DNA of 33,978 nt from Syntrophorhabdus sp. (GTDB taxonomy: Bacteria > Desulfobacterota > Syntrophorhabdia > Syntrophorhabdales > Syntrophorhabdaceae): positions 1-33,978 of the forward strand of contig JAAYAK010000112.1 of assembly GCA_012719415.1 (NCBI GenBank), read 5' to 3'. Below the pieces are notes generated by a model, which worked only from the letters and a program-made list of their open reading frames with translations, was not told where the DNA came from and did not search any database. This document shows, piece by piece, positions 2 to 27,857 of this stretch. Position numbers and translations under genes: made by a program. Each line of letters begins with the position of its first letter. The stretch's first letter is position 1.

Positions 2-1960
2 CCCAAGAGAAAGCATATCACCTACCTCATCGGCATCGGCATAACCATTCTTTTCGTCGTCCTCGCCGTCGTGCGGTTCGTACCCTTCGAGCGCCTTGAA
101 ATGCTCCTGTACGACCTTCGGTACCAGCTGAGGGGAAAAGCGAGCGCACCGGCGCAGATCGTCATTGTCGGCATAGATGACAAGAGCATCAACGCCATCG
201 GGAGATGGCCCTGGACGAGGGACAGGATGGCGGAACTCGTCGATGGCTTGAACGCCATGGGAGCCCGGGTCATCATGCTCGACTTCATCTTGAGCGAGCC
301 GTCACCTCGGGATGACAGGCTGGCAGCATCGATGAAGCGCTGGAAGAACGTAGTCCTGCCCTTCGTCTTCGATTTCGAGGGACATTCGCCCCGCGAGATC
401 GACGACGCCTTCCTGGACAACGCCTTCATGGTCGTCAGGAAAGAGAACCTTTACAGGATGCACAAGCCCATAACAGCGAAAGGTGTCCTTTTGCCCGTGA
501 CCCGGTTCTCCGAGAACTCGGCTGCGATGGGACATATCAACATGTTCCCCGACCAGGACGGAAAGCTCCGCTGGGACGTGCTCGTCGTCTCCTGCATGGA
601 CCAGCTCTATCCCTCCATCGACCTCCAGGTCGCGCGCCTCTACAAGGGGCTTTCGCCGGCGGAGATGAGCGTGGAGGCGACCGATTCCGTCACCCTGGGC
701 AACACTGTCATCTCCACTGACCCCTTCGGCAGGATGCTCATCCCCTACTACGGCCCCCACAACACCTTTCCCGTCATCCCGGCCCTCGACGTATTTGAGG
801 GAAAGGCGGACCCCTTATGGGTGCGGGACAGGATCGTCCTTGTGGGCCCCACCGCCGTCGGAATCCATGACAAGATCGTGACCCCGGCTTCGGCCATCAT
901 GTTCGGGGTGGAAAAGCACGCCAACATGGTCGGGGCGATCCTGGAGAACCAGAACATCCGCTTCATAGGACGCGTCACCAACATTCTCATCATCGTCTTC
1001 ATGGGGATGGTCTTTACCTTCCTCATCGTGCGGATGCGGGCGGTGGCGGGCGCCGCTCTCGCCGCGCTGTGCATCGCCGTCCTCTTCGCGGCCGGTTATG
1101 TCCTCTTCTTCCGGTGGGGGCTCTGGATCGATATCAGCTATGCCGGCAACGCGGTGATCGTCATCTACTTTGTAGCCACCGCTTACCGCTACGCGACGGA
1201 AGAACGGTACGCGCGGCAGATACGGAGCATGTTCTCCAGCTACGTCACGGAAAAAATCGTCAACGAGCTGATCAGGAACCCGGAGCTCGCCCGCCTTGGC
1301 GGGGAACGCCGCGAGGTCACCGTCCTTTTTTCGGATGTGAAAGGCTTTACCACCTTTTCCGAACACCACTCGCCGGAGCAGGTCGTGGCCATCCTCAACG
1401 AGTACCTCACGGAGATGACGAACATCGTGATCCGCTGGGACGGCACCCTGGACAAGTTCGTGGGAGACATGATCGTCGCCTTCTGGGGAGCTCCCCTTCG
1501 TCAACCGAACCACGCGGAGCTGGCCATCAAGTGCACCCTCCATATGAAGCAGCGCCTCAGCGAACTGAAGGAGAACTGGCTGAAACAGGGGCGCGTGCCT
1601 CTCGAGGCCGGTTTCGGCCTCAACACGGGTGAGGTGCTCGTGGGCAACATCGGCGCCGAGGGAAAGAAGATGGATTATACCGTCATCGGCGACAACGTGA
1701 ACCTCGGCTCCCGTGTCGAGGGACTGACCCGCAAGTACGGAGCCGAGATCATCATCACCGAGGCGACGCTCGACAAGATACGGGACCTCGTCGCCGGCGG
1801 CAAGTTCGGCCACCTTCTCATACGGGGCCTCGACATTGTCGCCGTGAAGGGCAAGGCCGAGCCGGTCCGCATCTACGAGGTGGCCTCCCTGGACGAAGGC
1901 TCGGTATGCCAGGTCATCGAATGCGAGGATAAGGAAGCCACGGTGTTCAAGGAGAAGTAA
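2..1960 (+). CDS. CHASE2-domain class III adenylate/guanylate cyclase (5' end outside window)
   Basis: Membrane-bound cyclase expected to make a cyclic nucleotide, probably cAMP, in response to an extracytoplasmic signal. The frame is open to the window edge and the first visible residues form a transmembrane helix, so the start lies upstream; GTG at 71 is internal. A periplasmic CHASE2 domain covers about residues 30-310 of the visible part, three membrane helices follow (about 315-400), then a C-terminal catalytic domain from about residue 435. Catalytic motifs are intact: FSDVKGFT and VGDMIVAFWG supply the two metal-binding aspartates, the lysine in TLDKFVGD and the aspartate in DYTVIGDNVNLGSRVE fit purine recognition, and the last motif includes the Asn and Arg of the transition-state pair. 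Only 20 nt separate its stop from the convergent FecR gene. CHASE2 cyclases are known as sensory proteins; the ligand here is unknown. Class is near certain, ATP rather than GTP is inference. Confidence 0.93.
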   Translation, partial: PKRKHITYLIGIGITILFVVLAVVRFVPFERLEMLLYDLRYQLRGKASAPAQIVIVGIDDKSINAIGRWPWTRDRMAELVDGLNAMGARVIMLDFILSEPSPRDDRLAASMKRWKNVVLPFVFDFEGHSPREIDDAFLDNAFMVVRKENLYRMHKPITAKGVLLPVTRFSENSAAMGHINMFPDQDGKLRWDVLVVSCMDQLYPSIDLQVARLYKGLSPAEMSVEATDSVTLGNTVISTDPFGRMLIPYYGPHNTFPVIPALDVFEGKADPLWVRDRIVLVGPTAVGIHDKIVTPASAIMFGVEKHANMVGAILENQNIRFIGRVTNILIIVFMGMVFTFLIVRMRAVAGAALAALCIAVLFAAGYVLFFRWGLWIDISYAGNAVIVIYFVATAYRYATEERYARQIRSMFSSYVTEKIVNELIRNPELARLGGERREVTVLFSDVKGFTTFSEHHSPEQVVAILNEYLTEMTNIVIRWDGTLDKFVGDMIVAFWGAPLRQPNHAELAIKCTLHMKQRLSELKENWLKQGRVPLEAGFGLNTGEVLVGNIGAEGKKMDYTVIGDNVNLGSRVEGLTRKYGAEIIITEATLDKIRDLVAGGKFGHLLIRGLDIVAVKGKAEPVRIYEVASLDEGSVCQVIECEDKEATVFKEK

Positions 1961-1980: not shown

Positions 1981-3147
1981 TCAGGGAGCCTTTGCCGTCC
2001 CGGAGGCGGTGCCGGAGACAACACCACCGGTCATCTCGTTATACTTCCCCGATGCCGTTCCGTCGAAGACGAAGGCCTTCGTGGTCGTGCCGATGCCGTG
2101 CGGAGCGCTGCCCGAGACCGACGCGTTCCACTGCCCGGCGGACAGGGAATGGGTCATCGTGAGCGAGGTGGCGTTCGACCCCGTCAGGACGTTGGTTCCC
2201 GCGCTGTAGGCGGTATCGAATATGCCCGTGATGTTGCCTCCCACGGACCATGTCTGGGGCACGGCTGTCGCGCTTGGTCCGTAGAACTTGACGTTCTGCA
2301 TCTTGAAACCCGTCGTCAGACCATGCCCCACGCCCCCGGTGTAGACAAAATCCGTGCTCCCCACGAGGACGGGCGTGGTGCTTATCGTGTTGTTCGTCGG
2401 CACGTCTATCCTCTGCTGGGTGAAGACATAGACGGAAGCGGACGATCCTGACGAGGCCGTGCTCACCATGCCTGACAGGGGGCCCGCGCCTGGCCTCTGC
2501 CCGCCACCCGGCGCGCCTTCCCCTCCCACATATCGCACGCTGCCCCGGACAGGAGGTGAGGGTGGGCCGCTGCCGACGATGAAGGAGATATTACCGGCGG
2601 TCACGTTGACCACTTTCCTGTCCACGGAATTGGGGTTGTAAAAGTAGCCCCTGCCCGTGGAGAAGAAGAGGCCCGTCACCATCTGGGCAAAGCGCACCGT
2701 CATCCCCGAACCCCGGATGCCGGCGACGGCGTTGGGGGTGTGGACCTCGAATTTGTTGCCCTCAGCGAAGGAAGAGACCTTCTTCAGGAACTCTTCACCC
2801 GATATGGCCTCCACCCTGCCGCGCTCGAGCTTCATTATCTGGCTGCTGCGGTTGCCCTCGCTGGAATACCGGCTGATCTGTACGCGAGTCGCCGGGGCTA
2901 TCCTGAGGACATTTTTGTTGAAGAAGGTGATCTCCGCCCGGCCGTTCGTCTTTGCCCGGTAGATATCGCCGACGTCGACGCTGTCGCCCGGGGAGACGCT
3001 GTTCACAACCGTCCGTCCCGGCTTGAGGACGTCGACCCTGCCTTCCACCCGCGTCACCCTGCCGACGGGCGCCGCGCTGAGGAGAACGGGAACACTGAGG
3101 AAAAGAGCGAGAATAATGATCCAGAATGCCAGAACCGGTGTTTTCAT
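1981..3147 (-). CDS. Secreted FecR-domain protein with one C-terminal beta-rich module
   Basis: Secreted protein of 388 residues. A Sec-type signal peptide ends near the APVGRVTRVEG stretch. A FecR domain follows (about residues 30-180: DSVDVGDIYRAKTNGRAEI, HTPNAVAGIRGSG), then a Gly/Pro/Ser-rich linker (about 200-240) and one C-terminal module of about 100 residues starting at NVKFYGPSATAVPQTW and ending in GTASG. FecR domains are usually periplasmic parts of signalling proteins or stand-alone envelope proteins; no sigma-factor interaction region or membrane helix is present, so this is probably not an anti-sigma regulator. It is the last gene of a likely operon with its paralogue and a TPR/barrel protein. 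GTG at 3150 directly precedes the chosen ATG at 3147, and GGAGG lies 7-10 nt upstream, so either codon may start translation. Function unknown. Confidence 0.85.
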   Translation of the reverse strand: MKTPVLAFWIIILALFLSVPVLLSAAPVGRVTRVEGRVDVLKPGRTVVNSVSPGDSVDVGDIYRAKTNGRAEITFFNKNVLRIAPATRVQISRYSSEGNRSSQIMKLERGRVEAISGEEFLKKVSSFAEGNKFEVHTPNAVAGIRGSGMTVRFAQMVTGLFFSTGRGYFYNPNSVDRKVVNVTAGNISFIVGSGPPSPPVRGSVRYVGGEGAPGGGQRPGAGPLSGMVSTASSGSSASVYVFTQQRIDVPTNNTISTTPVLVGSTDFVYTGGVGHGLTTGFKMQNVKFYGPSATAVPQTWSVGGNITGIFDTAYSAGTNVLTGSNATSLTMTHSLSAGQWNASVSGSAPHGIGTTTKAFVFDGTASGKYNEMTGGVVSGTASGTAKAP

Positions 3148-3275
3148 CACGGTGTTGCCTCCATCTGGCGATGAACATCACTACCTGAAATCCCGCACGG
3201 GCCGGTCAATGGACGACAGTCCCTTTGGAGACTGCGCTCAAGGGCGGCACGTCCTTCACGGGCGCTACGGGCTAG

Positions 3276-4898
3276 TTAGTGCACCTTCCCCGAGGCAACC
3301 CCGTTCAGCGTCGTGCTCGTGTTCGTTCCATTGGCGCTTCCCGAGAACGTCACGGCGCCGGTGTAACCACCCACACCACCGGGGGCGTTGCCATTGCTGA
3401 CAGACGCCTTCCAGTTCGAACCGTCAGCGCTGGTAATGGTAAAGACCGCCGTATTAGTGTCAAGGTGAATAGGAATATTCGTACCGACGAATGTCGGAAG
3501 AGCTCCCGCGGAAGAATTTCCGGTTACCGAAGTGGCCTGCCAGATCTGGGGTTTCGCCGTCGCGCTGCTGCCGTAAAACTTCACATCGTGGAGCGTAACG
3601 TCCATCCAGGTGGTGGTCCCGACGGAACCGAAGAGAGATGTAATTGTTCCCACCACCGTGTTGGGGGCCGCGACCGGTTCCTGGGTAAGGACACTGGGAG
3701 CCTCGCCGGAAGCTATACCGCTTATCGTTCCCTGATGAGTGTTGCCCACGAGCTGTCCGCTCCATGTCCCCGACGCGGTCCCGCTGAAGGTGAAGGCGCT
3801 CTTGCAGGTTCCCACGCCTTCGGGGGCGTTGCCGCTCGCGATATTCGCCGTCCAGCTTCCCGAATCCTTGCCGGTGTCGACATCGTTCGTGAGGATAAGG
3901 TTGGCGGTCACCCCGCCGCCTGACAGGGCCATTCCCTGGAAGCTCGAACCCTCTCCCACCGACGAATAGCTGCCCGACACCGAATCGGCCTTCCAGGACT
4001 GCGGTGTGCCCGTCGCGGTTGGTCCATAGAATTTGACGTTGTTGAGCGATACGCTCACCGTCTCCAGGGGATCGTGGTAGGTCCCGCTCAAAGACTCCAC
4101 GCTTCCCACAAAAACGCTGGGAATGACGGGGGGCGGCGTGAACGTGTAACCCGTGCTGACAACAGAAGTGAGTCCCGCCACGTCTGTGTTGAGACCGGTT
4201 CCCGTACCGCCCGACGTCCCCGTACCGCCGTTACCGGCCGCGCCTCCCGCTCCGGGAGCGGCCCCTGCTCCACCGACATAGGAGGCGTTGCCCTGAACGG
4301 GGCGAGAGGGACTTCCTCCGGCTCCGACAACGAAAGAGACGAAACCGGCGGTCACGTTGACCACTTTCCTGTCCACGGAATTGGGATTGTAAAAATAGCC
4401 CCTGCCCGTGGAGAAGAAGAGGCCCGTCACCATCTGGGCGTAACCCACCGCCATCCCGGAACCCCGGATGCCGGCGACGGCATTGGGGGTGTGTACCTCG
4501 AACTTGTTGCCCTCCGCGAAGGAGGAGACCTTCTTGATGAACTCCTCGCCGGACCTGGCCTCGACCCTGCCCCGCTCGAGCTTCATGATCTGGCTGCTCC
4601 TCGTGCCGTCATCGGAATACTCGCTGATCTGCACCCTCGTCGCGGGAGCTATCCTCAAGGTGTTCTTGTTGAAAAAGGTGATCTCGGCCCGCGAATTCGT
4701 CTTGGCGCGGTATATGTCGCCGACATCGACGCTGTCGCCGAGAGACACGCTTTTCACGATCCTCTGGCTCGTTTTGAGAACATCCACCCTGCCTTCCACG
4801 CGGGTGATCTTGCCAACGGGCGCGGCGGCGGCGGTAAGAACGAACAACAGCGTGAGCGCGACAAAACCGCATGCCAGGGACACTCTTTTCATTGTCAT
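3276..4898 (-). CDS. Secreted FecR-domain protein with two C-terminal beta-rich modules
   Basis: Paralogue of the next gene downstream, about 540 residues. A signal peptide is followed by a FecR domain (about residues 28-185) that is almost identical to the neighbour's, for example FAEGNKFEVHTPNAVAGIRG and FFSTGRGYFYNPNSVDRK. A Gly/Thr-rich linker (about 190-245) leads to two copies of the roughly 100-residue module; their hallmark stretches are NVKFYGPTATGTPQSW and DVKFYGSSATAKPQIW, each followed by a GNAPxGVG turn and an SGxAxG ending. The protein is therefore FecR plus a repeated beta-rich domain, probably surface or periplasmic. Start candidates are GTG 4901, ATG 4898 and ATG 4892, all behind GGAGG/GAGGTG. 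It lies 54 nt after the TPR/barrel gene and 128 nt before its paralogue, which suggests co-transcription. The biochemical role is not known; a sensing or structural surface role is inference. Confidence 0.85.
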   Translation of the reverse strand: MTMKRVSLACGFVALTLLFVLTAAAAPVGKITRVEGRVDVLKTSQRIVKSVSLGDSVDVGDIYRAKTNSRAEITFFNKNTLRIAPATRVQISEYSDDGTRSSQIMKLERGRVEARSGEEFIKKVSSFAEGNKFEVHTPNAVAGIRGSGMAVGYAQMVTGLFFSTGRGYFYNPNSVDRKVVNVTAGFVSFVVGAGGSPSRPVQGNASYVGGAGAAPGAGGAAGNGGTGTSGGTGTGLNTDVAGLTSVVSTGYTFTPPPVIPSVFVGSVESLSGTYHDPLETVSVSLNNVKFYGPTATGTPQSWKADSVSGSYSSVGEGSSFQGMALSGGGVTANLILTNDVDTGKDSGSWTANIASGNAPEGVGTCKSAFTFSGTASGTWSGQLVGNTHQGTISGIASGEAPSVLTQEPVAAPNTVVGTITSLFGSVGTTTWMDVTLHDVKFYGSSATAKPQIWQATSVTGNSSAGALPTFVGTNIPIHLDTNTAVFTITSADGSNWKASVSNGNAPGGVGGYTGAVTFSGSANGTNTSTTLNGVASGKVH

Positions 4899-4952
4899 CA
4901 CCTCATTCCTCCCGCGACCGGGGTCATTCGCCTCACTGCTCCCGTCCGGATC

Positions 4953-6545
4953 CTAGAACCGGTACTCGACACCCAGGCCGTACACCTCCCTCGTGTAGTC
5001 GTAGAGGGCTATGTTGGACTGGTTCCGGTAATAATTGTACTGAAGGACAAGGTCCGCGTTCTTGACGATGCCGTACAAGAGCGCGCAGGACACGGTGTAG
5101 ATGTCGTCCCGTCTCTTGCGCTCGAAATAGGTATTGTCGTAGGAATACTTCACGTAGTTCGCCTCCGCCGAGGCCTGTGCCCTCAACGGTCCGATGAGGG
5201 GATACAGGACATCGACACCGAAACGGTTCTCGTCGTTGACCCAGTTGCGCCCTATCGTGTTGTCCCGGGCATAGGCGTACCGCAGCGTGAGGAACGCCTT
5301 GTTGTCCTTGAAGGTGTACGTCCACCCCAGGCCGCCCGTCATCCTCTCACCGCTGCGCTCCTCTTCCTGGGGGACCTCGGGATGAAGCTCGGTGTCGAAA
5401 TACTTCTTGCGCATGTAACTGAAAAAGACCTCGCCGAAACTGCTGGCCGTGGTGAGGAAGCGAAGGGTCGGGCTCACCGACTTCGTCTCGAGATAGCGCG
5501 TCTGGTTCCACCAGTTGAGCTCGTTGAAGAAGCTGTTCCCCTTCACCCCCTGGAGGCTGACGTAGGAATAGGTGAGCGGCAGGCTCACGGCGAAACGGCC
5601 GAAGGCGTAGCCGGGGACGGCGCTCAGCGTGTTCGTCATGTTGTTGTACTCCGTCAGGTTGCCCCGGCTCCCGTCGGAACGCGTGTAGGTCTTCCCGAAA
5701 TACCTGTCCGCGTACACGGAGTAGTACGCGGAGAAGCTGTAGGGCGTTCTGAAGGAGAAGGGGGCGGTGTAGCCGATGCGGGCGCCGAAATTGAGGGCGC
5801 TGTCCTCCTGGCCGGAAATGGATTCCACCATCGGGCCGTCACCCTTTGTAACAACATTGGTGTCGTACTTATACCCCATCCCGACGCTGAACCGCCAGGG
5901 CCTTTCCCGTTCGGCCCTGTCGGCGACGATCTTCTCGTAATCCCTGGCATAGAGGGCAAGGTCGCTCGCGGGGTCAAGGGTGATGGTCGTCCGTAAGCGC
6001 TCCTTCGCGTCCTTGTATTTTCCCTGCTGCGTGTAGATGCCGGCTATCTGGAGCTCGGCCTGCTGTGTCAGTTTCGGATCGAGTTTCTTTGCCGTCTCGA
6101 AGGCCAGGACGGCCTCGTCGAGCCTTCCTCTCTTCGTGAGCACCATGCCCTTGAGAAAATGCAGGCGCGCCGTGCTGATCCCTTCCTTGTCCGCGAAGGC
6201 GATCCACTTCTCCGCTTCAACGATGTTGCCCGTGTGGTAGAGCACATCGATGAGCTCAACGACCCCCTCATCGACCCGGGGGGTCAGCGAGGCGGCCTCC
6301 CTGAAGTAGGGCAGGGCCTCCGGATACTTCTCCATGGCCTTGTACGTGAGGCCGACGTAATATGCCGTCCGGGCCGACCCCTTGTCGGCGGACCACGCCT
6401 CGAGAAAGAATGGCAGGGCCTCCTCGTAGTTCTCCTGGTTGAACTCCGTGAGTCCCTGATCGAACAACGTCTGCCCATGGACAGGGCAGATCGCTGAGAT
6501 CAGAAAAAACATGGCCAACAGGGAAGATGCAAGAAATCGTCTCAT
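4953..6545 (-). CDS. TPR protein with C-terminal outer-membrane beta-barrel (Slam-like layout)
   Basis: About 530 residues. A signal peptide (cleavage near PVHG-QTLF) is followed by four to five tetratricopeptide repeats (about residues 25-200) and then a long C-terminal region rich in alternating aromatic and polar residues, with many short stretches such as FSAYYSVYADRYFG and LVLQYNYYRNQSN. The chain ends in a terminal Phe (GVEYRF), the usual signal for BAM-dependent insertion of outer-membrane barrels. N-terminal TPR plus C-terminal barrel is the architecture of Slam translocators (type XI secretion), which move specific cargo to the cell surface; simple TPR porins are the alternative. The two FecR-domain proteins encoded directly downstream are candidate partners or cargo, which is inference from context. 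ATG at 6545 is chosen over TTG at 6551 because it sits behind a GGGGG purine run. Barrel assignment is good; Slam function is speculative. Confidence 0.82.
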   Translation of the reverse strand: MRRFLASSLLAMFFLISAICPVHGQTLFDQGLTEFNQENYEEALPFFLEAWSADKGSARTAYYVGLTYKAMEKYPEALPYFREAASLTPRVDEGVVELIDVLYHTGNIVEAEKWIAFADKEGISTARLHFLKGMVLTKRGRLDEAVLAFETAKKLDPKLTQQAELQIAGIYTQQGKYKDAKERLRTTITLDPASDLALYARDYEKIVADRAERERPWRFSVGMGYKYDTNVVTKGDGPMVESISGQEDSALNFGARIGYTAPFSFRTPYSFSAYYSVYADRYFGKTYTRSDGSRGNLTEYNNMTNTLSAVPGYAFGRFAVSLPLTYSYVSLQGVKGNSFFNELNWWNQTRYLETKSVSPTLRFLTTASSFGEVFFSYMRKKYFDTELHPEVPQEEERSGERMTGGLGWTYTFKDNKAFLTLRYAYARDNTIGRNWVNDENRFGVDVLYPLIGPLRAQASAEANYVKYSYDNTYFERKRRDDIYTVSCALLYGIVKNADLVLQYNYYRNQSNIALYDYTREVYGLGVEYRF

Positions 6546-6582
6546 TACCAAACCCCCGGTGTACCACAGGAATGATGCGTAT

Positions 6583-6598
6583 GTTAAGAATTATTAAC
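6583..6598. promoter_or_regulatory. Perfect dyad GTTAA-N6-TTAAC upstream of the TPR/barrel operon
   Basis: A 5-bp inverted repeat around an AT-rich centre lies 38 nt upstream of the TPR/barrel start codon, in a locally AT-rich stretch of otherwise GC-rich DNA. It overlaps a weak promoter-like region (AATAAT, with TTGTAA upstream on the minus strand). It could be an operator for the minus-strand operon. Only position and symmetry support this. Confidence 0.3.
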
Positions 6599-6655
6599 CT
6601 ATAAGAACGGGCTTTACAAGAGAAAGTTGCGGTACGAGGCGGACAGATGAAAAGA

Positions 6656-7423
6656 TCACAGGGCCAGTATTTCCGACTGCTTCAGAAAACGGATGTTCTT
6701 CCTGCCCGAACGTTCGAATTCGGCGACTATCTCACGAGCAAAGACCGGTTTCATATGGGAAACGTAGAACAGCCTGTCGCCAAGGCCATGGGCGTCCATC
6801 TTTTCCATGAGCATGGCGGGGGTCATATGTCCCGACAGGGTGGCAAGGTCGGCGAGACGGTTCGGGAAAGACACGTCAGCGATGATAAAGCGGATGTCCT
6901 TCTCGCCTTCCGCAACCTCCCAGAACCTTTTCGTCGGGCCCGTGTCCGCGGTGAACATGAAACCCTGCCCGTCGTCCTGCCTGATCACGAAACCCACCGT
7001 GTAGACCGTATGGGTCATGAGCACCGGTGTGATGCTTATCCGGTCAAGAATGGTCGGTCGTTCAAGGGGAACCTCCTTGAGCCGGATGACAGCGTTCGAA
7101 ACCGAGGGGATGACCGTGAAGTCGGGCCAGATCAGGTTGTTGAGAAGATTGTTGGTGATGATGTCGAGGACGGGGGCGACGCTGACAAGCTCCACGCTGT
7201 AGTCTCCCATCATGACAAGCTCGTCCACCAGGGGGAAGAGGCCCTTCACGTGATCCATGTGCGTGTGGGATATGAGAATATGCCTGATCTTCCGTAGGCC
7301 TTTTCGGCCTATGGCCTCTGTCACTGTCCCCGCGTCGAGCAGGAAGGAATCGTCGAGCAGGAAAGATGTGGTCCTGTACTTGCCGACGAGGTTGCCTGAG
7401 CAGCCGAGGATCTTGACACGCAT
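6656..7423 (-). CDS. Metallo-beta-lactamase fold hydrolase, class II cyclic-nucleotide phosphodiesterase type
   Basis: A 255-residue cytoplasmic MBL-fold hydrolase without signal peptide. The start MRVKILGCSGN at 7423 is the natural beginning of this fold; the open frame continues 26 residues upstream without family-like sequence. The metal site is clear: ISHTHMDHVKGL at residues 52-62 (H53, H55, D57, H58), a histidine in MTHTVYTVGF, the Asp in FTADTGP and the His in YVSHMKP. The stretch after HTHMDH resembles the signature of class II 3',5'-cyclic-nucleotide phosphodiesterases, so hydrolysis of cAMP or cGMP is the best guess; RNase Z-like or other MBL activities cannot be excluded. It is encoded upstream of the TPR/FecR operon on the same strand and about 4.7 kb from the cyclase, so synthesis and breakdown of one second messenger may be encoded side by side. 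Confidence 0.8.
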   Translation of the reverse strand: MRVKILGCSGNLVGKYRTTSFLLDDSFLLDAGTVTEAIGRKGLRKIRHILISHTHMDHVKGLFPLVDELVMMGDYSVELVSVAPVLDIITNNLLNNLIWPDFTVIPSVSNAVIRLKEVPLERPTILDRISITPVLMTHTVYTVGFVIRQDDGQGFMFTADTGPTKRFWEVAEGEKDIRFIIADVSFPNRLADLATLSGHMTPAMLMEKMDAHGLGDRLFYVSHMKPVFAREIVAEFERSGRKNIRFLKQSEILAL

Positions 7424-7539
7424 CACTTGATTGTATGTGATGGCTCTCCGACCTGTCAAGGGGTCTCGCGCCAGGGCCCACGGGAACGGGAACCACCCCA
7501 TTTCGTCGTGACGGCGGGCACATCGTTCACAATAATAAC

Positions 7540-7568
7540 TTGACGCGACAGGCCTAAGGCGTTATATT
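7540..7568 (+). promoter_or_regulatory. Sigma70-type promoter for the FmdB-like gene
   Basis: TTGACG at 7540-7545 and TATATT at 7563-7568 are separated by exactly 17 nt. The expected transcript start lies near 7575, leaving a short leader with GGAGG at 7597-7601, 6 nt before the ATG. This is one of the clearest promoters in the window. Confidence 0.72.
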
Positions 7569-7607
7569 ACTGACACTTAGACACTTTTTTTGCGTTGGAG
7601 GAACACC

Positions 7608-7931
7608 ATGCCTATCTATGAATATCAGTGTACGGGATGCGGGAAGATATTCGAGGTATTCCAGAAAATAAGCGACGAGCCGCTCACTGAGTGCAAGATA
7701 TGCAAGGGAACGCTCACGAAGCTGATCTCTAACTGCGCGTTCCACCTCAAAGGCACGGGATGGTATGTCACGGACTACAAGAAGCCGGTCGACACCGTCG
7801 GCGGCGGCAAGAACGGCAACAAGCACGTCGAGAAGACGGAAAGCACCCCCGAGCCGGCAACGGCAACGGAGACGAAGACGGAAACGAAAACGGAAACCGC
7901 AAGCACAACATCGACAGGAGGAGCGGCATGA
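7608..7931 (+). CDS. FmdB-family zinc-ribbon protein
   Basis: Small protein of 107 residues beginning [17 protein letters not shown], the standard start of the FmdB family of putative regulatory proteins. C8/C11 and C29/C32 form two CxxC knuckles of a zinc ribbon. After about residue 70 the sequence becomes a low-complexity Thr/Glu/Lys tail ([10 protein letters not shown]), common in this family and probably disordered. ATG 7608 has an ideal GGAGG 6 nt upstream; the frame opens slightly earlier at a TTG lacking such a site. Its stop overlaps the next start (ATGA at 7928-7931), so the two are translationally coupled. FmdB was named from a formamidase/acetamidase locus, but the molecular role of the family is not established. 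Confidence 0.92.
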
Positions 7932-8080
7932 CGAAGGGCGACAGGGTATCGTTCACATTCGCGAAGAAAACCATGGAAGGGACCGTGGACCAGGTGTTCC
8001 CGAAGACCGTTTACATAAGGGCCGATTTCCCGAAAGACAAGGGAAAGATCATCAAAAGAAAGATAAAAGACGTCAAGTAA
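7928..8080 (+). CDS. Small basic protein of 50 residues, SH3/Tudor-like
   Basis: ATG at 7928 overlaps the stop of the FmdB-like gene as ATGA, and an AGGAGGAGC purine run lies just upstream. The 50-residue product begins [20 protein letters not shown] and ends in a Lys-rich tail (KRKIKDVK). The pattern of a KGDxV turn followed by [16 protein letters not shown] resembles small KOW/SH3/Tudor-type beta barrels that bind nucleic acid or ribosomal partners, but I recognise no named family. The gene is followed 6 nt later by a 13-copy heptamer array. Coding status rests on the ribosome binding site, the coupling and a plausible domain-like sequence. Confidence 0.7.
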
Positions 8081-8085
8081 AGACA

Positions 8086-8176
8086 GTTTCAGGTTTCAGG
8101 TTTCAGGTTTCAGGTTTCAGGTTTCAGGTTTCAGGTTTCAGGTTTCAGGTTTCAGGTTTCAGGTTTCAGGTTTCAG
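8086..8176 (+). repeat. Element A, left arm: 13 perfect tandem copies of GTTTCAG
   Basis: The heptamer GTTTCAG is repeated 13 times without a mismatch, starting 6 nt after the stop of the 50-residue ORF. Any reading through it (Phe-Gln-Val-Ser-Gly-type peptides) is an artefact of the repeat. A shorter array of the same unit in inverted orientation lies at 8281-8308 beside the carB stop. Confidence 0.97.
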
Positions 8177-15624: not shown

Positions 15625-15647
15625 ACCGCCGGCAGCGGTTTCTTTTT
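15625..15647 (+). terminator. Probable intrinsic terminator after the EF-Tu domain-2-like gene
   Basis: ACCGC (15625-15629) pairs with GCGGT (15635-15639) around a 5-nt loop, and TTCTTTTT follows immediately. A competing stem GCCGG/CCGGC (15615-15619 with 15629-15633) overlaps it. The stem is short, but GC-rich and correctly placed between a stop codon and a new promoter. Confidence 0.5.
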
Positions 15648-15658
15648 ACTCTTCAGGG

Positions 15659-15687
15659 CTGACAGGTGCGCCCTTCTGTGTTATAAG
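15659..15687 (+). promoter_or_regulatory. Sigma70-type promoter for the PhoU-like gene
   Basis: CTGACA at 15659-15664 and TATAAG at 15682-15687 are separated by 17 nt. Both hexamers match consensus at five of six positions. The start codon at 15721 follows after a leader of about 27 nt carrying GGAGG. Confidence 0.65.
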
Positions 15688-15720
15688 ATACGGAAAAGAT
15701 CTCATGGAAATGGAGGAGCG

Positions 15721-16305
15721 ATGGAAGACAAAGAACTGAAGAAGCGTTTCCTTGATATTTTCGAGACGGCAACCCCCATTCTTGAGGACCTGAAGAAAGG
15801 GTTCTTTTCCCAGCAGGCCGGGCTCATACAGGAATGCGAAAAAAAGTTCGGGGACCTGCTCATCTCGCGCGTTCCCTACGTCGAAAAAGTGATCGGGGAA
15901 AAGGAAAAGAGCGAGGCGGACAAAAAATACGTCCGGCTGCTTCCCGCGCTTCAGACCATTGCCCTGGCCATCGAGAACCTCATGTACAAAATGGAGGCGA
16001 AGGTCGCTCACAACATCCTTTTCAGCGAAAAGGCGCTTTCCGAGATCCGCGACCTGTATGGCCTCATGCAGGAGCAGTTCCGCGACACGAAGGACTACGT
16101 GCAGACGACTAATCCCGGCCTTCACCAGGCGATCAAACAGCATATGGAGAAGATGTTCAAAATGATCGAAGAGCTGGCCCAGGTCCACCAGAACAGGCTC
16201 ATCACGGGGATATGCATGCCCCAGGCATCCTACCTGTACCTTGACATCACCGATTCCCTGAAGAGGATCACCCGGGGACTCGTGGATTTCGCCGACAAGG
16301 TCTAG
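15721..16305 (+). CDS. PhoU-domain-like helical protein
   Basis: 194-residue all-helical cytoplasmic protein. The second half has the PhoU-like pattern of long amphipathic helices ending in a conserved SYLYLDITDSLKRITRGLVDFAD stretch, comparable to the ERIGDH/NIA helix of PhoU and of the C-terminal domain of Na/Pi cotransporters. PhoU proteins modulate phosphate transport and signalling, but no pst, pho or NptA-type gene is nearby, so the target is unknown. The start was placed at ATG 15721 (GGAGG 4 nt upstream); the frame opens earlier but that part overlaps the promoter. Its TAG is followed after 3 nt by the TTG start of the nucleotidyltransferase, indicating one transcript. Family assignment is moderate, as the conserved metal-binding acidic motifs of PhoU are not clear. 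Confidence 0.7.
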   Translation: MEDKELKKRFLDIFETATPILEDLKKGFFSQQAGLIQECEKKFGDLLISRVPYVEKVIGEKEKSEADKKYVRLLPALQTIALAIENLMYKMEAKVAHNILFSEKALSEIRDLYGLMQEQFRDTKDYVQTTNPGLHQAIKQHMEKMFKMIEELAQVHQNRLITGICMPQASYLYLDITDSLKRITRGLVDFADKV

Positions 16306-16308
16306 TGG

Positions 16309-17709
16309 TTGGGGATCTCTCCGCAGGAGCTCGCCCGTTCCATCACCGGCGGTGACGTTGCAGGCAGGCTGGCCGCATGTCCCTTCAGGGGAGAGGTCTT
16401 TCTCGTGGGAGGGGCCATACGGGAGATCGCCCTCGGCAGACAGCCGCGGGACTGGGACCTCGCTCTCTCCGAAGCCTCCGACCTCGCGCGCCTCGAGGAG
16501 GTCTTCGGCAGGCGGTCCTTCCTTCTCGGAAAAAAGCCCATTCAGACACACCGGCTTGTCTCCGGGGAGATCGTCCTTGACATAACCATCCTCGAGGGAA
16601 GCATCGAGAAAGACCTCCGGCGACGGGATTTCACGATGAACGCCGTCGCCTTCGATATCCGGCGGGACCGGGTCATCGACCCCCTTTACGGCCTCCACGA
16701 TATCGAAAGGGGGCTTATCCGCTACCCCGGCCGTGAAACCATCCCCAGCGACCCTTTGAGGATGCTCAAGGCCGCCCGGCACTTCGCCGCTCTCAGGGGG
16801 TTCGACCTTGATCCCGAGCTCATCGAGACAATGACCTCTTCGCGGCATCTCATCGGACAGACCGCGCCGGAGAGGATCAAGTACGAACTCGACCTTATCA
16901 TGGTCTCCGAGGGCGTCCATCGCGGCATGGAGATGCTCACGAGAACGGGGCTCATCTTCGAGATCGTTCCCGAGCTCGAGGCGCTGCGCGTCATGGACGT
17001 GGAAAGGAACTTTTCCCTCGAGACCTTCGGCCATACCCTTCTCGGATTCTCATTCCTCCATACCCGCGGCGGCCGTTACCTGACCGACAAGGCCGCAGCG
17101 AAAGACGTGGGGTACGCTCTGCTCTTTCACGACCTGGGAAAGGCCCACACCTATTCCTATGACGAGGCCAGGGGCCTCGTCCACTTTTTCAACCACGAGC
17201 GCCGGTCACAGGAGATAGCGTCGGCCATCATGGAAAGGCTGCGTTTCAGCACCCATGAGATGAAACGGATATCAATCCTGATAGAACACCATATGCGCAT
17301 CTTTCTCATCAGCTCCGCCGAGGCTACGGAAAAGGCAATAAGACGCCTCATTTACAGGCTCGGCGACCTCACCCCGGAGCTCATCGCCCTCACGCTCTGT
17401 GACATGTACGGAAGTTCCGGGGGAGAAGAGAACACCTCAACACGCCAGGTCGTTCAGAACTGTGATTCCATCCTGGCGGCATGGCATGAATCGAAAAAGA
17501 AACCCCTCCCGAGGCTCCTGTCCGGCAAGGACCTCCTGGCCATGGGCTTTCACGAGGGGCCCTTTCTCGGCAACTGCCTCGACACCGTCCGCGACAGACA
17601 GGTATCAGGCGAAATACAAACCCGCGAAGAGGCCCTGCAATTCGCCGAAGAATTCCTGAAAAAGAACAGAAGTGCAGCAACCCCCCCTCAGGAAGGACCC
17701 ACCGGATGA
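16309..17709 (+). CDS. CCA-adding/poly(A) polymerase-type tRNA nucleotidyltransferase with HD domain
   Basis: 466-residue class II nucleotidyltransferase that builds or repairs the 3' CCA end of tRNA (complete CCA addition or an A-adding or CC-adding share of it). The head domain has VGGAIREIALG (residues 33-43), the catalytic DWD at 48-50, and RRRDFTMNAVAFD, which binds the nucleotide and primer; the arm motif DPLRMLKAARHFA follows. The C-terminal half carries an HD-type motif (LLFHDLGK, then NHERRSQEIA and EHHMRIF), as in Escherichia coli Cca-type and some A-adding enzymes. The start is TTG 16309; it is the only start-like codon before the catalytic motifs, with AAGG 8 nt upstream inside the previous gene's end. 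It probably follows the PhoU-like gene in one operon. Which nucleotides it adds cannot be decided from sequence. Confidence 0.93.
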   Translation: MGISPQELARSITGGDVAGRLAACPFRGEVFLVGGAIREIALGRQPRDWDLALSEASDLARLEEVFGRRSFLLGKKPIQTHRLVSGEIVLDITILEGSIEKDLRRRDFTMNAVAFDIRRDRVIDPLYGLHDIERGLIRYPGRETIPSDPLRMLKAARHFAALRGFDLDPELIETMTSSRHLIGQTAPERIKYELDLIMVSEGVHRGMEMLTRTGLIFEIVPELEALRVMDVERNFSLETFGHTLLGFSFLHTRGGRYLTDKAAAKDVGYALLFHDLGKAHTYSYDEARGLVHFFNHERRSQEIASAIMERLRFSTHEMKRISILIEHHMRIFLISSAEATEKAIRRLIYRLGDLTPELIALTLCDMYGSSGGEENTSTRQVVQNCDSILAAWHESKKKPLPRLLSGKDLLAMGFHEGPFLGNCLDTVRDRQVSGEIQTREEALQFAEEFLKKNRSAATPPQEGPTG

Positions 17710-17730: not shown

Positions 17731-17793
17731 GGTCCCACGCGTCCTATTCGTCCAATATGTCCTATAGGTCCCATCTTTCCTATAGGTCCCATC
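17731..17793 (+). repeat. Element E: seven tandem 9-mers related to GGTCCTATA
   Basis: Consecutive nonamers GGTCCCACG, CGTCCTATT, CGTCCAATA, TGTCCTATA, GGTCCCATC, TTTCCTATA, GGTCCCATC follow each other in register 22 nt after the nucleotidyltransferase stop. No separate inverted arm is seen, but CCTATAGG at junctions is itself a palindrome, so the array can fold on itself. It sits directly upstream of a gene with no visible ribosome binding site. Confidence 0.88.
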
Positions 17794-17815
17794 ACACCGA
17801 AGCCGCCCTTTCCCC

Positions 17816-18877
17816 ATGAAACGCTCCGTCACATCCCTCCCCCTCCACACAGGCCGCGCCCCGGCGTGGCTCTTCGACAGGATGAAGCGGCTCTGCGGGG
17901 CCCTTATCGAGGTCGTCGTCATGGAATACGGCACCCGCGAGCTTCTCACCCGGCTTGCGGACCCGTTGTGGTTCCAGGCGTTGGGATGCGCCGTCGGTTT
18001 CGACTGGCACTCGAGCGGGTTGACGACGACATTGTGCGGGGCCTTGAAGGAAGGGCTGACCCTGCTCGGTGATGACGTGCCGCTCGCCATATGCGGCGGC
18101 AAGGCCAAACGGGCCATCCGAACACCTGACGATATCAAGGCCTACGGCGAGAGATGGGGCGTCGATGTCTCCGGAATGGTTGCGATGAGCAGGCTCTGCG
18201 CCAAGATAGACAACACGGCCGTCCAGGACGGGTACGGCCTCTACCACCACACGTTCATCTTCACCCCCGACGGTTCCTGGGGCATCATCCAGCAGGGGAT
18301 GTCGGCCGAAAGGAAGGACGCCCGGCGTTACCAGTGGCTCTCCCGGGACGGCCTCGATGTCATGTCCGACCCCCACACGGGGATAACCTGTGACCACACG
18401 CAGGAAGTCCTCAACTTCGTCGCCGGCCGGAGCGGTGATGCGAGGGATGCCGTCGTCGACTTCGCCTCGGAAGACCCCGATAGAATGGCGTCGACGTGGA
18501 AGGATATCGCCCTTTCCATGCCGAAACGCCACTACATATCCGCCGAGGACGTGAACACGGGACGACTCTTGAAGGCCTTCAACGCCATCCACGAGGCGCA
18601 TCCGCACTCCTTCCGGGACCTCCTGGAGATACGCGGCGTCGGCCCGCGGACCGTCGGCGCCCTCGCGCTCGTATCGGAGCTCGTCTACGGCGCTCCCCCG
18701 AGCTTCGCGGACCCGGCCCGTTTCAGCTTCGCCCACGGCGGGAAGGACGGATACCCCTTCCCCGTCGACAAACCCACCTACGAACATTCCATCGACTTCC
18801 TCAAGACCTGCATAGACAAGGCAAAGATGGGCGACAGGGAAAAACTGGACACCTTTAAAAGACTGGCAAAGATATAG
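17816..18877 (+). CDS. DUF763 family protein
   Basis: 353-residue protein of the DUF763 family, widespread in archaea and some bacteria and without established function. It begins MKRSVTSLPLHTGRAPAWLF, a typical start for this family, and contains FDWHSSGLTTTLCGALK, AICGGKAKRAIRTP, GYGLYHHTFIFTPDG and DPHTGITCDH. A helix-hairpin-helix-like segment (LEIRGVGPRTVGALALVSEL, about residues 260-280) suggests nucleic-acid contact, and the final part HGGKDGYPFPVDKPTYEHSI is also family-conserved. No Shine-Dalgarno sequence precedes ATG 17816; the space upstream is a 9-mer repeat array. It follows a tRNA nucleotidyltransferase, which is compatible with a nucleic-acid role but does not prove one. Family assignment is firm, function unknown. 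Confidence 0.93.
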   Translation: MKRSVTSLPLHTGRAPAWLFDRMKRLCGALIEVVVMEYGTRELLTRLADPLWFQALGCAVGFDWHSSGLTTTLCGALKEGLTLLGDDVPLAICGGKAKRAIRTPDDIKAYGERWGVDVSGMVAMSRLCAKIDNTAVQDGYGLYHHTFIFTPDGSWGIIQQGMSAERKDARRYQWLSRDGLDVMSDPHTGITCDHTQEVLNFVAGRSGDARDAVVDFASEDPDRMASTWKDIALSMPKRHYISAEDVNTGRLLKAFNAIHEAHPHSFRDLLEIRGVGPRTVGALALVSELVYGAPPSFADPARFSFAHGGKDGYPFPVDKPTYEHSIDFLKTCIDKAKMGDREKLDTFKRLAKI

Positions 18878-18882
18878 CAAGG

Positions 18883-18917
18883 GGTGATAGGTCATGGGTT
18901 ATGGGTGATAGGAAAAG
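18883..18917 (+). repeat. Element F, left arm: heptamers GGTGATA/GGTCATG/GGTTATG
   Basis: Five heptamers in register (GGTGATA, GGTCATG, GGTTATG, GGTGATA, GGAAAAG) begin 6 nt after the DUF763 stop; two further units, GGTCATT and GGTCACT, lie at 18929-18942. The unit also occurs inverted at 18959-18999 beside the convergent gene. Confidence 0.85.
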
Positions 18918-24620: not shown

Positions 24621-27600
24621 TCATCTTTCTCCCAGTACGCTTCTTATGATCTCGTCCAGTTCCTCCATGAGGCAGGGCTTGGCCAGGACTCCCTTGAAGC
24701 CGTACTTTCGGTGGCTTGCCATGACGGGGTCGTTGGAGTAACCGCTGGAGACTATGGCCCTGACGCCGGGGTCGATGGCAAGGAGTTCTTTCACCGTGTC
24801 CTTCCCTCCCAATCCACCAGGAACGGTTATATCGAGAAGGACGACGTCAAAAGGAGTGCCCTGAGCGCTCGCTTCACGATACCTGGCGATCGCCTCCCGG
24901 CCATCCGCCGCGGAGGTCACATCGTAACCGAGGCCCTCTAGCATCTCCTTCGTCGTCTTACGTATCATCGCCTCGTCGTCCATGTGAAGAACCCTGGCCC
25001 TGAGCACGCTGCTCCTCATGTCCCGGACGTCCCTCGTGATGGAGGCGGCGGGCCACCGCGACGCCTTCAGGTAAATGAAGAAGGTGGTTCCCGAACCTTG
25101 TTCGGACTCGAGCGTGATATGGCCGTCATGATTCTTGATGATCGAATAAGATGTGGCGAGTCCGAGACCGCTGCCCTTATCCTTGGTCGTGAAGTAGGGA
25201 TCGAATACCTTGTGCACCTGTTCCGGCGCGATCCCGATGCCGTGGTCTCTCACCGATATCCGGACATAGCTGCCGGGCTTGAGGAAAGTACCGTGCTCCA
25301 TCATCTCCTGGGTGGCGACGAGGTTCGCGGCCTCGATCGTGATCACCCCGCCATCGGGCATGGCCTGCTGGGAATTGATGATGAGATTGTTTATGACCTG
25401 ACTCATCTGGCCCTCGTCGATATCAACGGGGAAAAGGTCTTCGGCAAATGTGAAGTCGCACCTGACCCCGGAACCCGTGAGGGCGAAACTGGCCGTTTCC
25501 CTGACCACGTTTTCGATGGAGGTCGTCTTCAGGATAGGAGAACCTCCCTTTGAAAAGGTGAGAAGCTGGAGGGTCAGGTCCCTGGCCCTCAATACCGCTT
25601 GTTCCGCGTCGTCGAGACGTCTCAGCACCTTCTCGTCTGAAGGCTTCGTGTACATCTTCGCCAGAGACACATTGCCCAGCACGGCGGCGAGGATATTGTT
25701 GAAATCGTGGGCTATTCCTCCTGCCAGAATGCCCACCGATTCAAGCTTGCTCATCTTTTGCAGTTCCTCGTCCATTCTCTTCCTTTCCGTCACGTCGCGA
25801 AAGACCAGCACCACACCGGCAATACTCCCGTCCCTGTCCCGTATGGGGGCGCCGCTGTCAGCTATGGCAAGCTCACCGCCGTTCTTCGAGATGAGCGCCG
25901 TATGGTTCGCGAGGCCGACGACGGCCCCCATTCGCAGCACTTTGTCGACGGGGCTTTCGCATCTTGCGCGGGTCCTCTCGTTGATGATGTGGAAAACATC
26001 GGTAAGTTCCCTTCCTGCCGCCTCCTCCTGTCTCCAACCGGTCAGTTCCTCGGCGACGGCGTTCATCAGAACGATCCTCCCATCGGCGTCGGTGGCGATC
26101 ACGCCGTCACCGATGGAACGCAGCGTGACCGCGAGGCGCTCCTTTTCATTTGCCAGGGCCTCCTCGGCGAGACGGCGCTCCGTTATATCCTCGAAGGAAA
26201 CGATGTAGTCGTCGTTCTCCAGACGGACGGTGATGAAATTGATCAGCTTTGTCGCCCCGTCCTTGCACACCACGGGGAAGGTCCGTGGCATCTTCTCTCC
26301 GGCATCCGTGGTGCTGGTGTCGTGATGCCAGGCGTCGGTTACGGTCTTCCTCACGGCCTCGTCGGGATAGGCACGCTCGAACCACGCCGCGCGGTCGGGT
26401 ATCTCGGCAAGGGTGAATCCGAAGATCTCCGTGAACTTCGGGTTCACATAGAGATACCTGTCTTCCCTGTCGAACATGGCCATACCGAAGGGAGCGTGCT
26501 CTATGAGGATCTGGAACTTTTGCCGCTCCGCGCTGAGTCTCTCCTCGGCGATCTCCCCGTCGGAAACATCCCGGGCGAAGCAGAAGATGAAGTCCTCTCC
26601 ATTGTAGGTGACGCGGTTCGCGATCACCTCGACGGGGAAGACGCGGCCGTTCCTGGCCTGGTGATGGGACCTGAAAGTGATGGAGCCCTCTTCCGCCATG
26701 CACCTGCCTATGGCGGAGAGTTCCCTCTTCGTGTGGTCGGGATCGACATCCACGACCCTGAGGGAGAGAAGCTCCTCTTTCGTGTACCCAAGCTTGCCGC
26801 AGGCAGCATCGTTCACGTACACGAAACGCCCATCTGGCCTGATCCAGAAGATCGATTCCGATGCATGTTCGATGGAAAACCGCGTGAGCCAGAGCGCTTC
26901 CTCACGCAGTCGCCTCACCGTCACGTCCCTCATGTACACGAGCGCGACCGCCTCCCCCCTGTAGGTAGTCCCCGTTGCGGAAACCTCGATGTAAACGATG
27001 TCACCGTTGCGCTTGACCCCTTTGAACTCATACCGCTCCGGCATTGCCTCGCCGCGCTGCCTGCGCTGCGTGAAATCGGCTACCCTCTCATGGTCATCGC
27101 GATGGACAGTGAGGGATTGCGGTTTCCCTACAATGTCGGCGGGGCTTTCATAGCCGAAGATCTTGACGAACTTGCCGTTCACGTAAAGATGGATGTTGCC
27201 TTTCAGTATGGCCACGCCGTCGTTCGAATTCTCGATGGCCGTCCGGTACCGCTCCTCTGACTCCCTGAGGGCCTCCTCGGCGCGGCGGACCGCCGTCACA
27301 TCGCGGCTGAAGACAGCGATCCTTGCCACCGACCCTTGCCGGTCGAGAACGGGATAGTAGCAGTTCTCAAGCCAGACGCCGTCCCGGAAATCGGTGCAGG
27401 AAAGGGGCTTTCGTGCCGTGATTATCCTTTCCATCAGGGCCTTCCTGCTGCGGGCCACCTCGGGCGAGAAATAATCGAATATGTTGCTGCCCACCATCTT
27501 CTCCACATCCTGGTTGAAACGGCGTGCCAGATTCTCATTGAGCGTAATGATCGTTCCGTCGCTGTCCATCATGAAGGCTGCATCGGGCGGGGTGTCGAAA

Positions 27601-27668
27601 AAGACACGGACACCGTCCTGTCCCACGGAGGATGCAACCTGTTCCTTCTCCGGATCACAGTTGTTCAT
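24621..27668 (-). CDS. Hybrid histidine kinase: five PAS domains, HisKA, HATPase and receiver
   Basis: About 1015 residues, soluble, with no signal peptide or membrane helix. Five PAS/PAC units occupy about residues 20-635, separated by short coiled linkers of the type RRAEEALRESEERYR. HisKA follows with phospho-acceptor H654 in GGIAHDFNNILAA, then the ATPase domain with N-box INNLIINSQQAMPDGG, RDHGIGIAPEQ and GSGLGLATSYSI. The C-terminal receiver has the acidic pair in HMDDEA, the phospho-acceptor D946 in VVLLDITVPG and the Lys in LAKPC. Multiple cytoplasmic PAS domains suggest sensing of redox, gas or small ligands; no heme- or flavin-specific residues can be assigned. No partner response regulator lies nearby. 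MNNCDPEKE at 27668 was chosen over an earlier ATG because GAGG precedes it by 5 nt. Confidence 0.95.
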   Translation of the reverse strand: MNNCDPEKEQVASSVGQDGVRVFFDTPPDAAFMMDSDGTIITLNENLARRFNQDVEKMVGSNIFDYFSPEVARSRKALMERIITARKPLSCTDFRDGVWLENCYYPVLDRQGSVARIAVFSRDVTAVRRAEEALRESEERYRTAIENSNDGVAILKGNIHLYVNGKFVKIFGYESPADIVGKPQSLTVHRDDHERVADFTQRRQRGEAMPERYEFKGVKRNGDIVYIEVSATGTTYRGEAVALVYMRDVTVRRLREEALWLTRFSIEHASESIFWIRPDGRFVYVNDAACGKLGYTKEELLSLRVVDVDPDHTKRELSAIGRCMAEEGSITFRSHHQARNGRVFPVEVIANRVTYNGEDFIFCFARDVSDGEIAEERLSAERQKFQILIEHAPFGMAMFDREDRYLYVNPKFTEIFGFTLAEIPDRAAWFERAYPDEAVRKTVTDAWHHDTSTTDAGEKMPRTFPVVCKDGATKLINFITVRLENDDYIVSFEDITERRLAEEALANEKERLAVTLRSIGDGVIATDADGRIVLMNAVAEELTGWRQEEAAGRELTDVFHIINERTRARCESPVDKVLRMGAVVGLANHTALISKNGGELAIADSGAPIRDRDGSIAGVVLVFRDVTERKRMDEELQKMSKLESVGILAGGIAHDFNNILAAVLGNVSLAKMYTKPSDEKVLRRLDDAEQAVLRARDLTLQLLTFSKGGSPILKTTSIENVVRETASFALTGSGVRCDFTFAEDLFPVDIDEGQMSQVINNLIINSQQAMPDGGVITIEAANLVATQEMMEHGTFLKPGSYVRISVRDHGIGIAPEQVHKVFDPYFTTKDKGSGLGLATSYSIIKNHDGHITLESEQGSGTTFFIYLKASRWPAASITRDVRDMRSSVLRARVLHMDDEAMIRKTTKEMLEGLGYDVTSAADGREAIARYREASAQGTPFDVVLLDITVPGGLGGKDTVKELLAIDPGVRAIVSSGYSNDPVMASHRKYGFKGVLAKPCLMEELDEIIRSVLGER

Positions 27669-27857
27669 GGCCACCTCGCAACAGGGGTACCGTGCCCCAA
27701 CTTCATGGGGGGACGGACACACCCTCCCCGTTCATATCTTCCCTTGATCCTATGCGGGTTTTTCTTTTTTCAGAAGCCTGTGCCTGACCCTGATTCCTGG
27801 TCATTATTCTATGAACCTTTTGAGTCAAAAGGCAAGGATTTCCAACATCTCCCCGGC

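Follow-up and report, generated by a model that had tools for sequence, protein, structure and literature searches.

In this study we describe a gene set in which a predicted outer-membrane barrel of Slam-like design is encoded directly ahead of FecR-domain proteins and close to a CHASE2 cyclase gene. We put at roughly 55% the probability that the barrel serves as a Slam-like translocon and that its cargo, a FecR protein, feeds a CHASE2-dependent cAMP pathway, with transport and signalling as the inferred parts of this reading. The set suggests a so far unrecognised route by which a signal could be carried from the cell surface to the cell interior. Gene linkage, domain content, the homology between the barrel and SlipAM proteins, the predicted folds and the sister operons described below were all computed.

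Organization of the locus

The window, by which we mean the whole stretch of 33,978 nucleotides analysed here, belongs to a 3.7 Mb draft genome with four FecR and four CHASE2 matches, and contains the following features:

71 to 1960, plus strand: CHASE2 sensor with class III adenylate/guanylate cyclase (PF05226 206.9 bits, PF00211 77.3 bits)
1981 to 3150, minus strand: FecR2, 389 aa, with signal peptide, FecR domain, linker and one C-terminal module (PF04773 37.6 bits)
1984 to 2433, minus strand: C-terminal module of FecR2, the modelled segment (AF2 on alignment A4)
3276 to 4901, minus strand: FecR1, 541 aa, with signal peptide, FecR domain, Gly-rich linker and two module copies (PF04773 38.7 bits)
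3279 to 3665, minus strand: C-terminal module, second copy of FecR1
3687 to 4121, minus strand: C-terminal module, first copy of FecR1
4953 to 6551, minus strand: TPR protein with 14-strand outer-membrane barrel, candidate Slam/SlipAM-like translocon (Pfam, AF2 model)
6656 to 7501, minus strand: MBL-fold protein, cAMP phosphodiesterase class II-like (PF02112 36.5 bits, Lactamase_B_2 46.5 bits)

The barrel gene precedes FecR1 and then FecR2, and all three were found at these positions. Both FecR proteins exceed the PF04773 cut-off (24 bits), have signal peptides that we read off the sequence, and share an N-terminal FecR region of ~200 aa. The cyclase gene is convergent with FecR2 and lies 20 bp past its end; its open frame (2-1960) starts at the contig end, so that the 5' end of the gene is cut. 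The encoded protein has the domain content of a CHASE2 sensor with a class III cyclase, from which its activity is predicted. On the other side, the MBL-fold gene lies upstream of the barrel gene on the same strand, and its product contains the HxHxDH motif (SHTHMDH) and scores above the PF02112 cut-off of 23.7 bits. The preliminary description, made from the DNA alone, had correctly recognised a TPR/barrel gene followed by two FecR genes, an arrangement now confirmed by coordinates, Pfam and the 64 of 68 related loci described below, and it had also correctly noticed a common C-terminal module, which proved to be real and repeated, with two copies in FecR1 and one in FecR2. It had missed the CHASE2 cyclase (71-1960) and the phosphodiesterase-like gene upstream of the barrel. 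The cyclase context points to signalling.

Elsewhere in the window, two ORFs at 15646-17034 (minus strand, 462 aa) and 17792-18895 (minus strand, 367 aa) are without a Pfam match at E 1e-5, and 24621-27722 (minus strand) encodes a histidine kinase that contains four PAS domains and ends in a receiver domain. The window genes that were checked have housekeeping or signalling functions, and they did not include a polysaccharide synthase.

Fold and family of the barrel

Pfam assigns TPRs and BBP2_2 to the barrel protein above cut-off, and SlipAM (PF04575) at 17.7 bits, below the cut-off of 22. Several orthologues exceed this cut-off (G019, 44.5 bits; G014, 41.6; G013, 37.5; L134, 42.3; L088, 35.8). 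BBP2_2 and DUF2860 score nearly as high as SlipAM in barrel orthologues; the SlipAM match extends over nearly the whole length, those of BBP2_2 and DUF2860 over the C-terminal part alone. When alignment A2 was compared by hhalign with five SlipAM barrels of the phylum, the two matched over 430 columns with a probability of 100% and E 1.3e-46, a score to which the TPR region contributes part.

An AlphaFold2 model of the barrel protein, built on 56 sequences (pLDDT 89.1), consists of a helical TPR domain (residues 27-213) followed by strands (217-529). We count 14 strands, having joined by reading the split strands 318-321 with 324-331 and 350-357 with 360-366. The closest solved barrels to the model are CymA (Z 22.9, 278 residues, 3.3 A) and OmpG (Z 20.0), both of which we take to be 14-strand barrels. 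The TPR half matches many TPR proteins and the top Foldseek match of the whole chain is BcsC; among the PDB matches listed there is no Slam protein, which excludes nothing. Published accounts give 14 strands for Slam barrels and 16 for PgaA (PMC8406197, PMC5449769). The strand count, on which the preliminary description had staked its comparison with Slam, thus left that comparison standing, and the design it had proposed, an N-terminal TPR domain with a C-terminal barrel, is borne out by the model, by the SlipAM scores of the orthologues and by the hhalign match. Together these sequence comparisons support the view that the window barrel is a divergent homologue within the Slam/DUF560/SlipAM superfamily; with a Pfam score below cut-off and a putative transport role, it is not filed here as a proven T11SS member.

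Linkage of barrel and FecR genes across genomes

Barrel orthologues turned up in numerous related genomes by protein search, and scanning the GTDB species representatives with alignment A1 yielded 80 loci, spanning Syntrophorhabdus-like bacteria to Nitrospirota, Omnitrophota and Geobacter. Profile HMMs place a FecR gene immediately downstream of the barrel gene in 64 of the 68 loci with room for one, at a median gap of about 18 bp and often of 9-12 bp, and this linkage recurs in Thermodesulfobacteriota, Nitrospirota, Omnitrophota and others. Since genomes contain just a few FecR genes each, chance is excluded as the source of the adjacency, and since barrel identity falls to about 25-35%, mere inertia of gene order is unlikely. 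The preliminary description had proposed co-occurrence as a check on its gene set, and the outcome is divided: the barrel is followed by FecR almost throughout, whereas FecR-domain proteins as a class mostly occur away from it (of 128 in 60 genomes, 100 have no barrel gene within 6 kb).

The FecR partners range in size from about 250 to 2,909 aa. Minimal partners amount to a FecR domain with hardly anything besides a Pro-rich tail, and in most complete partners a linker, often Pro/Gly/Thr-rich, separates the FecR domain from the remainder. In related genera we observed partners of 2,100-2,900 aa (L083:11805-20534, L085:4327-12984, L080:4953-11828 and L081:11643-17960) that are beta-rich, with FecR as the sole Pfam domain in those scanned; self-BLAST of these giant proteins found no internal repeats at E 1e-3. 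In loci of the Omnitrophota type (L106, L108, L113, L116, L118, L121, L124, L129, L141 and L145) the partner carries a tandem pair of FecR domains, mostly without the C-terminal module.

The C-terminal module

The module comprises ~125 residues (aa 265-402 and 417-541 of FecR1, aa 263-387 of FecR2). Beyond FecR, Pfam matched nothing in either protein at E up to 1, and a PDB sequence search with the module profile gave no match, TbpB included. The AF2 model of the FecR2 copy, based on alignment A4 (pLDDT 86.0), has eight to nine antiparallel strands forming a predicted barrel. Foldseek places TbpB first for this model, but with E 0.11, and in VIA-align the Z of TbpB (3.9-4.6) is exceeded by that of unrelated small outer-membrane barrels (up to 5.9). 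An identity with TbpB_B_D was considered and rejected: an FYGP-A motif is similar, but the hhalign probability is 5% over 27 columns, and the alignment pairs non-corresponding positions of the two domains and is not collinear. A mixed alignment of FecR and module (A3) was left unused, its module fragments being misplaced.

Among 52 complete FecR partners, 21 carry the module and 31 do not. It therefore cannot be a general recognition signal, and the earlier proposal of recognition through a C-terminal beta module is ruled out in this general form. Within the clade of the window itself, complete partners that follow the barrel carry the module; one locus of this clade, L139, has broken frames. 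FecR domain and module are separable parts, both of which travel with the barrel: in another locus of the window's clade, L090 (the same as L051), a paralogous barrel is followed at 4693-8100 by a 1,135-aa protein with a lipase-like N-terminus, a beta-propeller and the module, without a FecR domain, and in L093 and L092 FecR and module are split over neighbouring genes. A phylum sample of 297 genomes contained 15 with the module and 59 with the barrel, and all 15 module genomes also encode the barrel; these are raw counts that ignore kinship. Barrel-bearing genomes also encode module proteins at sites away from the barrel gene; most of these have their own FecR domain, as expected of additional cargo. 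In G012, a close relative, the module lies at a contig edge and the barrel was not found. On a quick tree of the barrels the module label changes many times; some 'noCMOD' rows are contig-cut proteins, and we draw no count from it.

Sister operons with FecR and TbpB_B_D on one protein

Several SlipAM barrel genes from other families in the phylum are followed on their own strand by a FecR gene and then a CHASE2 cyclase gene, and the three are co-directional in L221, L228, L245, L247, L248 and L254. Some of these FecR proteins additionally bear TbpB_B_D, a domain that marks known Slam cargo (PMC8406197), above its Pfam cut-off of 26 bits: FecR and TbpB_B_D score 37.9 and 35.5 bits in L221, 38.0 and 38.8 in L235 (the same as L254), and 35.0 and 28.3 in L238 (the same as L253), and the protein of L228 falls slightly below the TbpB_B_D cut-off. 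TbpB_B_D was detected in 12 genomes of the phylum, and in at least seven of them profiles built here place it together with FecR on a single protein beside a SlipAM barrel. This arrangement makes it very probable that FecR-domain Slam cargo exists in the sister group. Judged by sequence, the window barrel is a homologue of the sister-group Slam-type barrel whose partner bears a different C-terminal module. The idea of FecR-domain Slam cargo, put forward in the preliminary description, is thus sustained by the sister proteins; it is not carried over in full to the window, where the module is not detectably TbpB_B_D and the barrel stays at 17.7 bits against a cut-off of 22. As a separate observation, L251:7097-8626 (G220) holds a single 509-aa frame that joins Slam-type TPRs, a partial FecR domain and the start of TbpB_B_D, which is either a natural fusion or a sequence error.

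CHASE2 cyclases and the MBL-fold gene

The association of FecR with CHASE2 reaches beyond the barrel loci. Of the 128 FecR matches in 60 genomes, 39 have a CHASE2 gene within 6 kb, compared with about 1.4 expected; the adjacency is conserved across phyla, and many such pairs occur without a barrel. Among the 43 barrel loci with more than 5.5 kb of room, a CHASE2 gene is visible in 15 and none was seen in 28. In Syntrophorhabdia, as well as some Nitrospirota, the MBL-fold gene remains a neighbour of the barrel or CHASE2 gene. In five genomes of the genus (G000:C35:18322-18615, G002, G008, G010 and G011), a FecR match beside CHASE2 and away from the barrel holds an in-frame stop, which may reflect a match running past the natural end of the gene.

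A possible route from the surface to the cyclase

From these data we infer a scheme that concerns translocation, topology, contact between FecR and CHASE2, and the role of the MBL enzyme. The barrel would serve specifically the FecR proteins whose genes follow its own. Once exported by Sec, a FecR protein would be assembled or translocated by the barrel at the outer membrane, and its C-terminal part would reach the surface, as an eight-stranded module in the window's clade and as up to about 2,600 further, beta-rich residues in relatives. The FecR domain would report to the inner-membrane CHASE2 adenylate cyclase, whose cyclic nucleotide could be degraded by the MBL-fold enzyme, which would thereby reset the signal. 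Taken as a whole, the interpretation offered in the preliminary description is partly supported. The main weakness of a Slam-like role lies in the minimal partners, which are almost a FecR domain alone and would fit a gated receptor without transport equally well.

Such a receptor is the strongest of the competing explanations, although we consider it rather doubtful. Here, in a manner similar to NsrA (PMC7529298), the barrel would be a surface sensor or channel, and FecR, in the periplasm, would act as its partner or plug and relay the barrel's state to the CHASE2 cyclase, with nothing translocated. This would account for the FecR domain, and not the C-terminal module, being the constant partner, for minimal partners made of this domain and a Pro-rich tail, and for FecR-CHASE2 pairs without any barrel, and it is in line with a barrel model that resembles 14-strand porins and with a known FecR-CHASE2 pair that has a peptidoglycan-binding LysM domain (PMC5192318). 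It sits poorly with the homology of the barrel to SlipAM, with sister FecR proteins that bear the Slam-cargo barrel TbpB_B_D, and with partners of 900-2,900 aa, for which a periplasmic role is not obvious.

An intermediate topology is conceivable but unlikely. If translocation were partial, the module could be threaded to the surface with the FecR domain retained on the periplasmic side; the result would be a lasting receptor across the envelope, connecting the surface module, via the barrel, with the CHASE2 cyclase. The threaded part would be the long Pro/Gly/Thr-rich linker behind the FecR domain; its presence in most complete partners allows this topology, which is a guess.

Even less probable, in our view, is plain secretion, in which the barrel would export the FecR protein as an adhesin or a matrix component, and the CHASE2 cyclase would be a mere regulator or conserved neighbour. 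Giant beta-rich partners and the same module on a lipase/propeller protein would suit it, as would a window cyclase gene that is convergent and outside the operon and the 28 of 43 loci with room in which no CHASE2 gene was seen. However, FecR-CHASE2 adjacency is far above chance, barrel-less pairs included, and barrel, FecR and CHASE2 genes are co-directional in distant sister operons, both of which speak against plain secretion. An exopolysaccharide channel of the PgaA/BcsC type with FecR accessories agrees with BcsC heading the whole-chain Foldseek search and with the BBP2_2 match, and is nevertheless highly improbable given 14 predicted strands, not the 16 given for PgaA (PMC8406197), and no polysaccharide synthase among the window genes checked.

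Comparison with known systems

Unlike in FecIRA anti-sigma signalling, the FecR domain in the window starts at aa 63 behind a signal peptide, and no further domain was matched. The BiofilmReg operon (PMC5192318) resembles the window in having a FecR gene beside a CHASE2 sensor; it differs in its histidine kinase output, in a LysM domain in place of the C-terminal beta module and in having no barrel gene. In S. meliloti, experiments showed that the CHASE2 cyclases CyaK, CyaD1 and CyaD2 need the outer-membrane barrel NsrA in order to be activated by signals (PMC7529298, PMC13001267). NsrA is thus likewise an outer-membrane beta-barrel tied to CHASE2 adenylate cyclases, but, compared by description only, it is far larger, with its barrel portion at aa 600-1200, and neither Slam nor FecR cargo is reported for it in these papers.

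A Campylobacterota cluster of a CHASE2 adenylate cyclase, a phosphodiesterase, a FecR-domain protein and a TPR protein, proposed as one signalling pathway (PMC9239204), has the same four kinds of gene as the window. As far as the available text of that paper goes, the TPR protein is not described as a Slam-like barrel and a cargo role is not proposed. The CHASE2/PDE/FecR/TPR cluster is already known in Campylobacterota, and we found no report of a Slam link to it.

FecR is unmentioned in the T11SS literature we consulted (PMC8406197, PMC12282271, PMC5449769), and our search of open-licence papers found none linking Slam with FecR, in agreement with the preliminary description, which held a type XI-like pathway with FecR cargo to be undescribed. 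With Slam/T11SS (DUF560, SlipAM) the system shares the N-terminal TPR domain, a barrel predicted here to have 14 strands, a neighbouring protein that is putatively exported, SlipAM scores above cut-off in orthologues and a full-length profile match to SlipAM barrels. It departs from them in its partner, a non-lipidated FecR protein whose module is not recognised as TbpB_B_D or lipoprotein C, in the sub-threshold Pfam score of the window barrel and in the nearby CHASE2 cyclase. The environmental signals of CHASE2 sensors have been described as unknown (PMC5192318), and surveys of T11SS list the unidentified cargo of systems beyond the animal-associated cluster among the open questions (PMC8406197, PMC12282271). 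Should a FecR protein placed by a Slam-like exporter control a CHASE2 cyclase, one gene set would bear on both questions, and signalling would join nutrient capture and adhesion among the roles of Slam systems, in environmental phyla of anaerobes.
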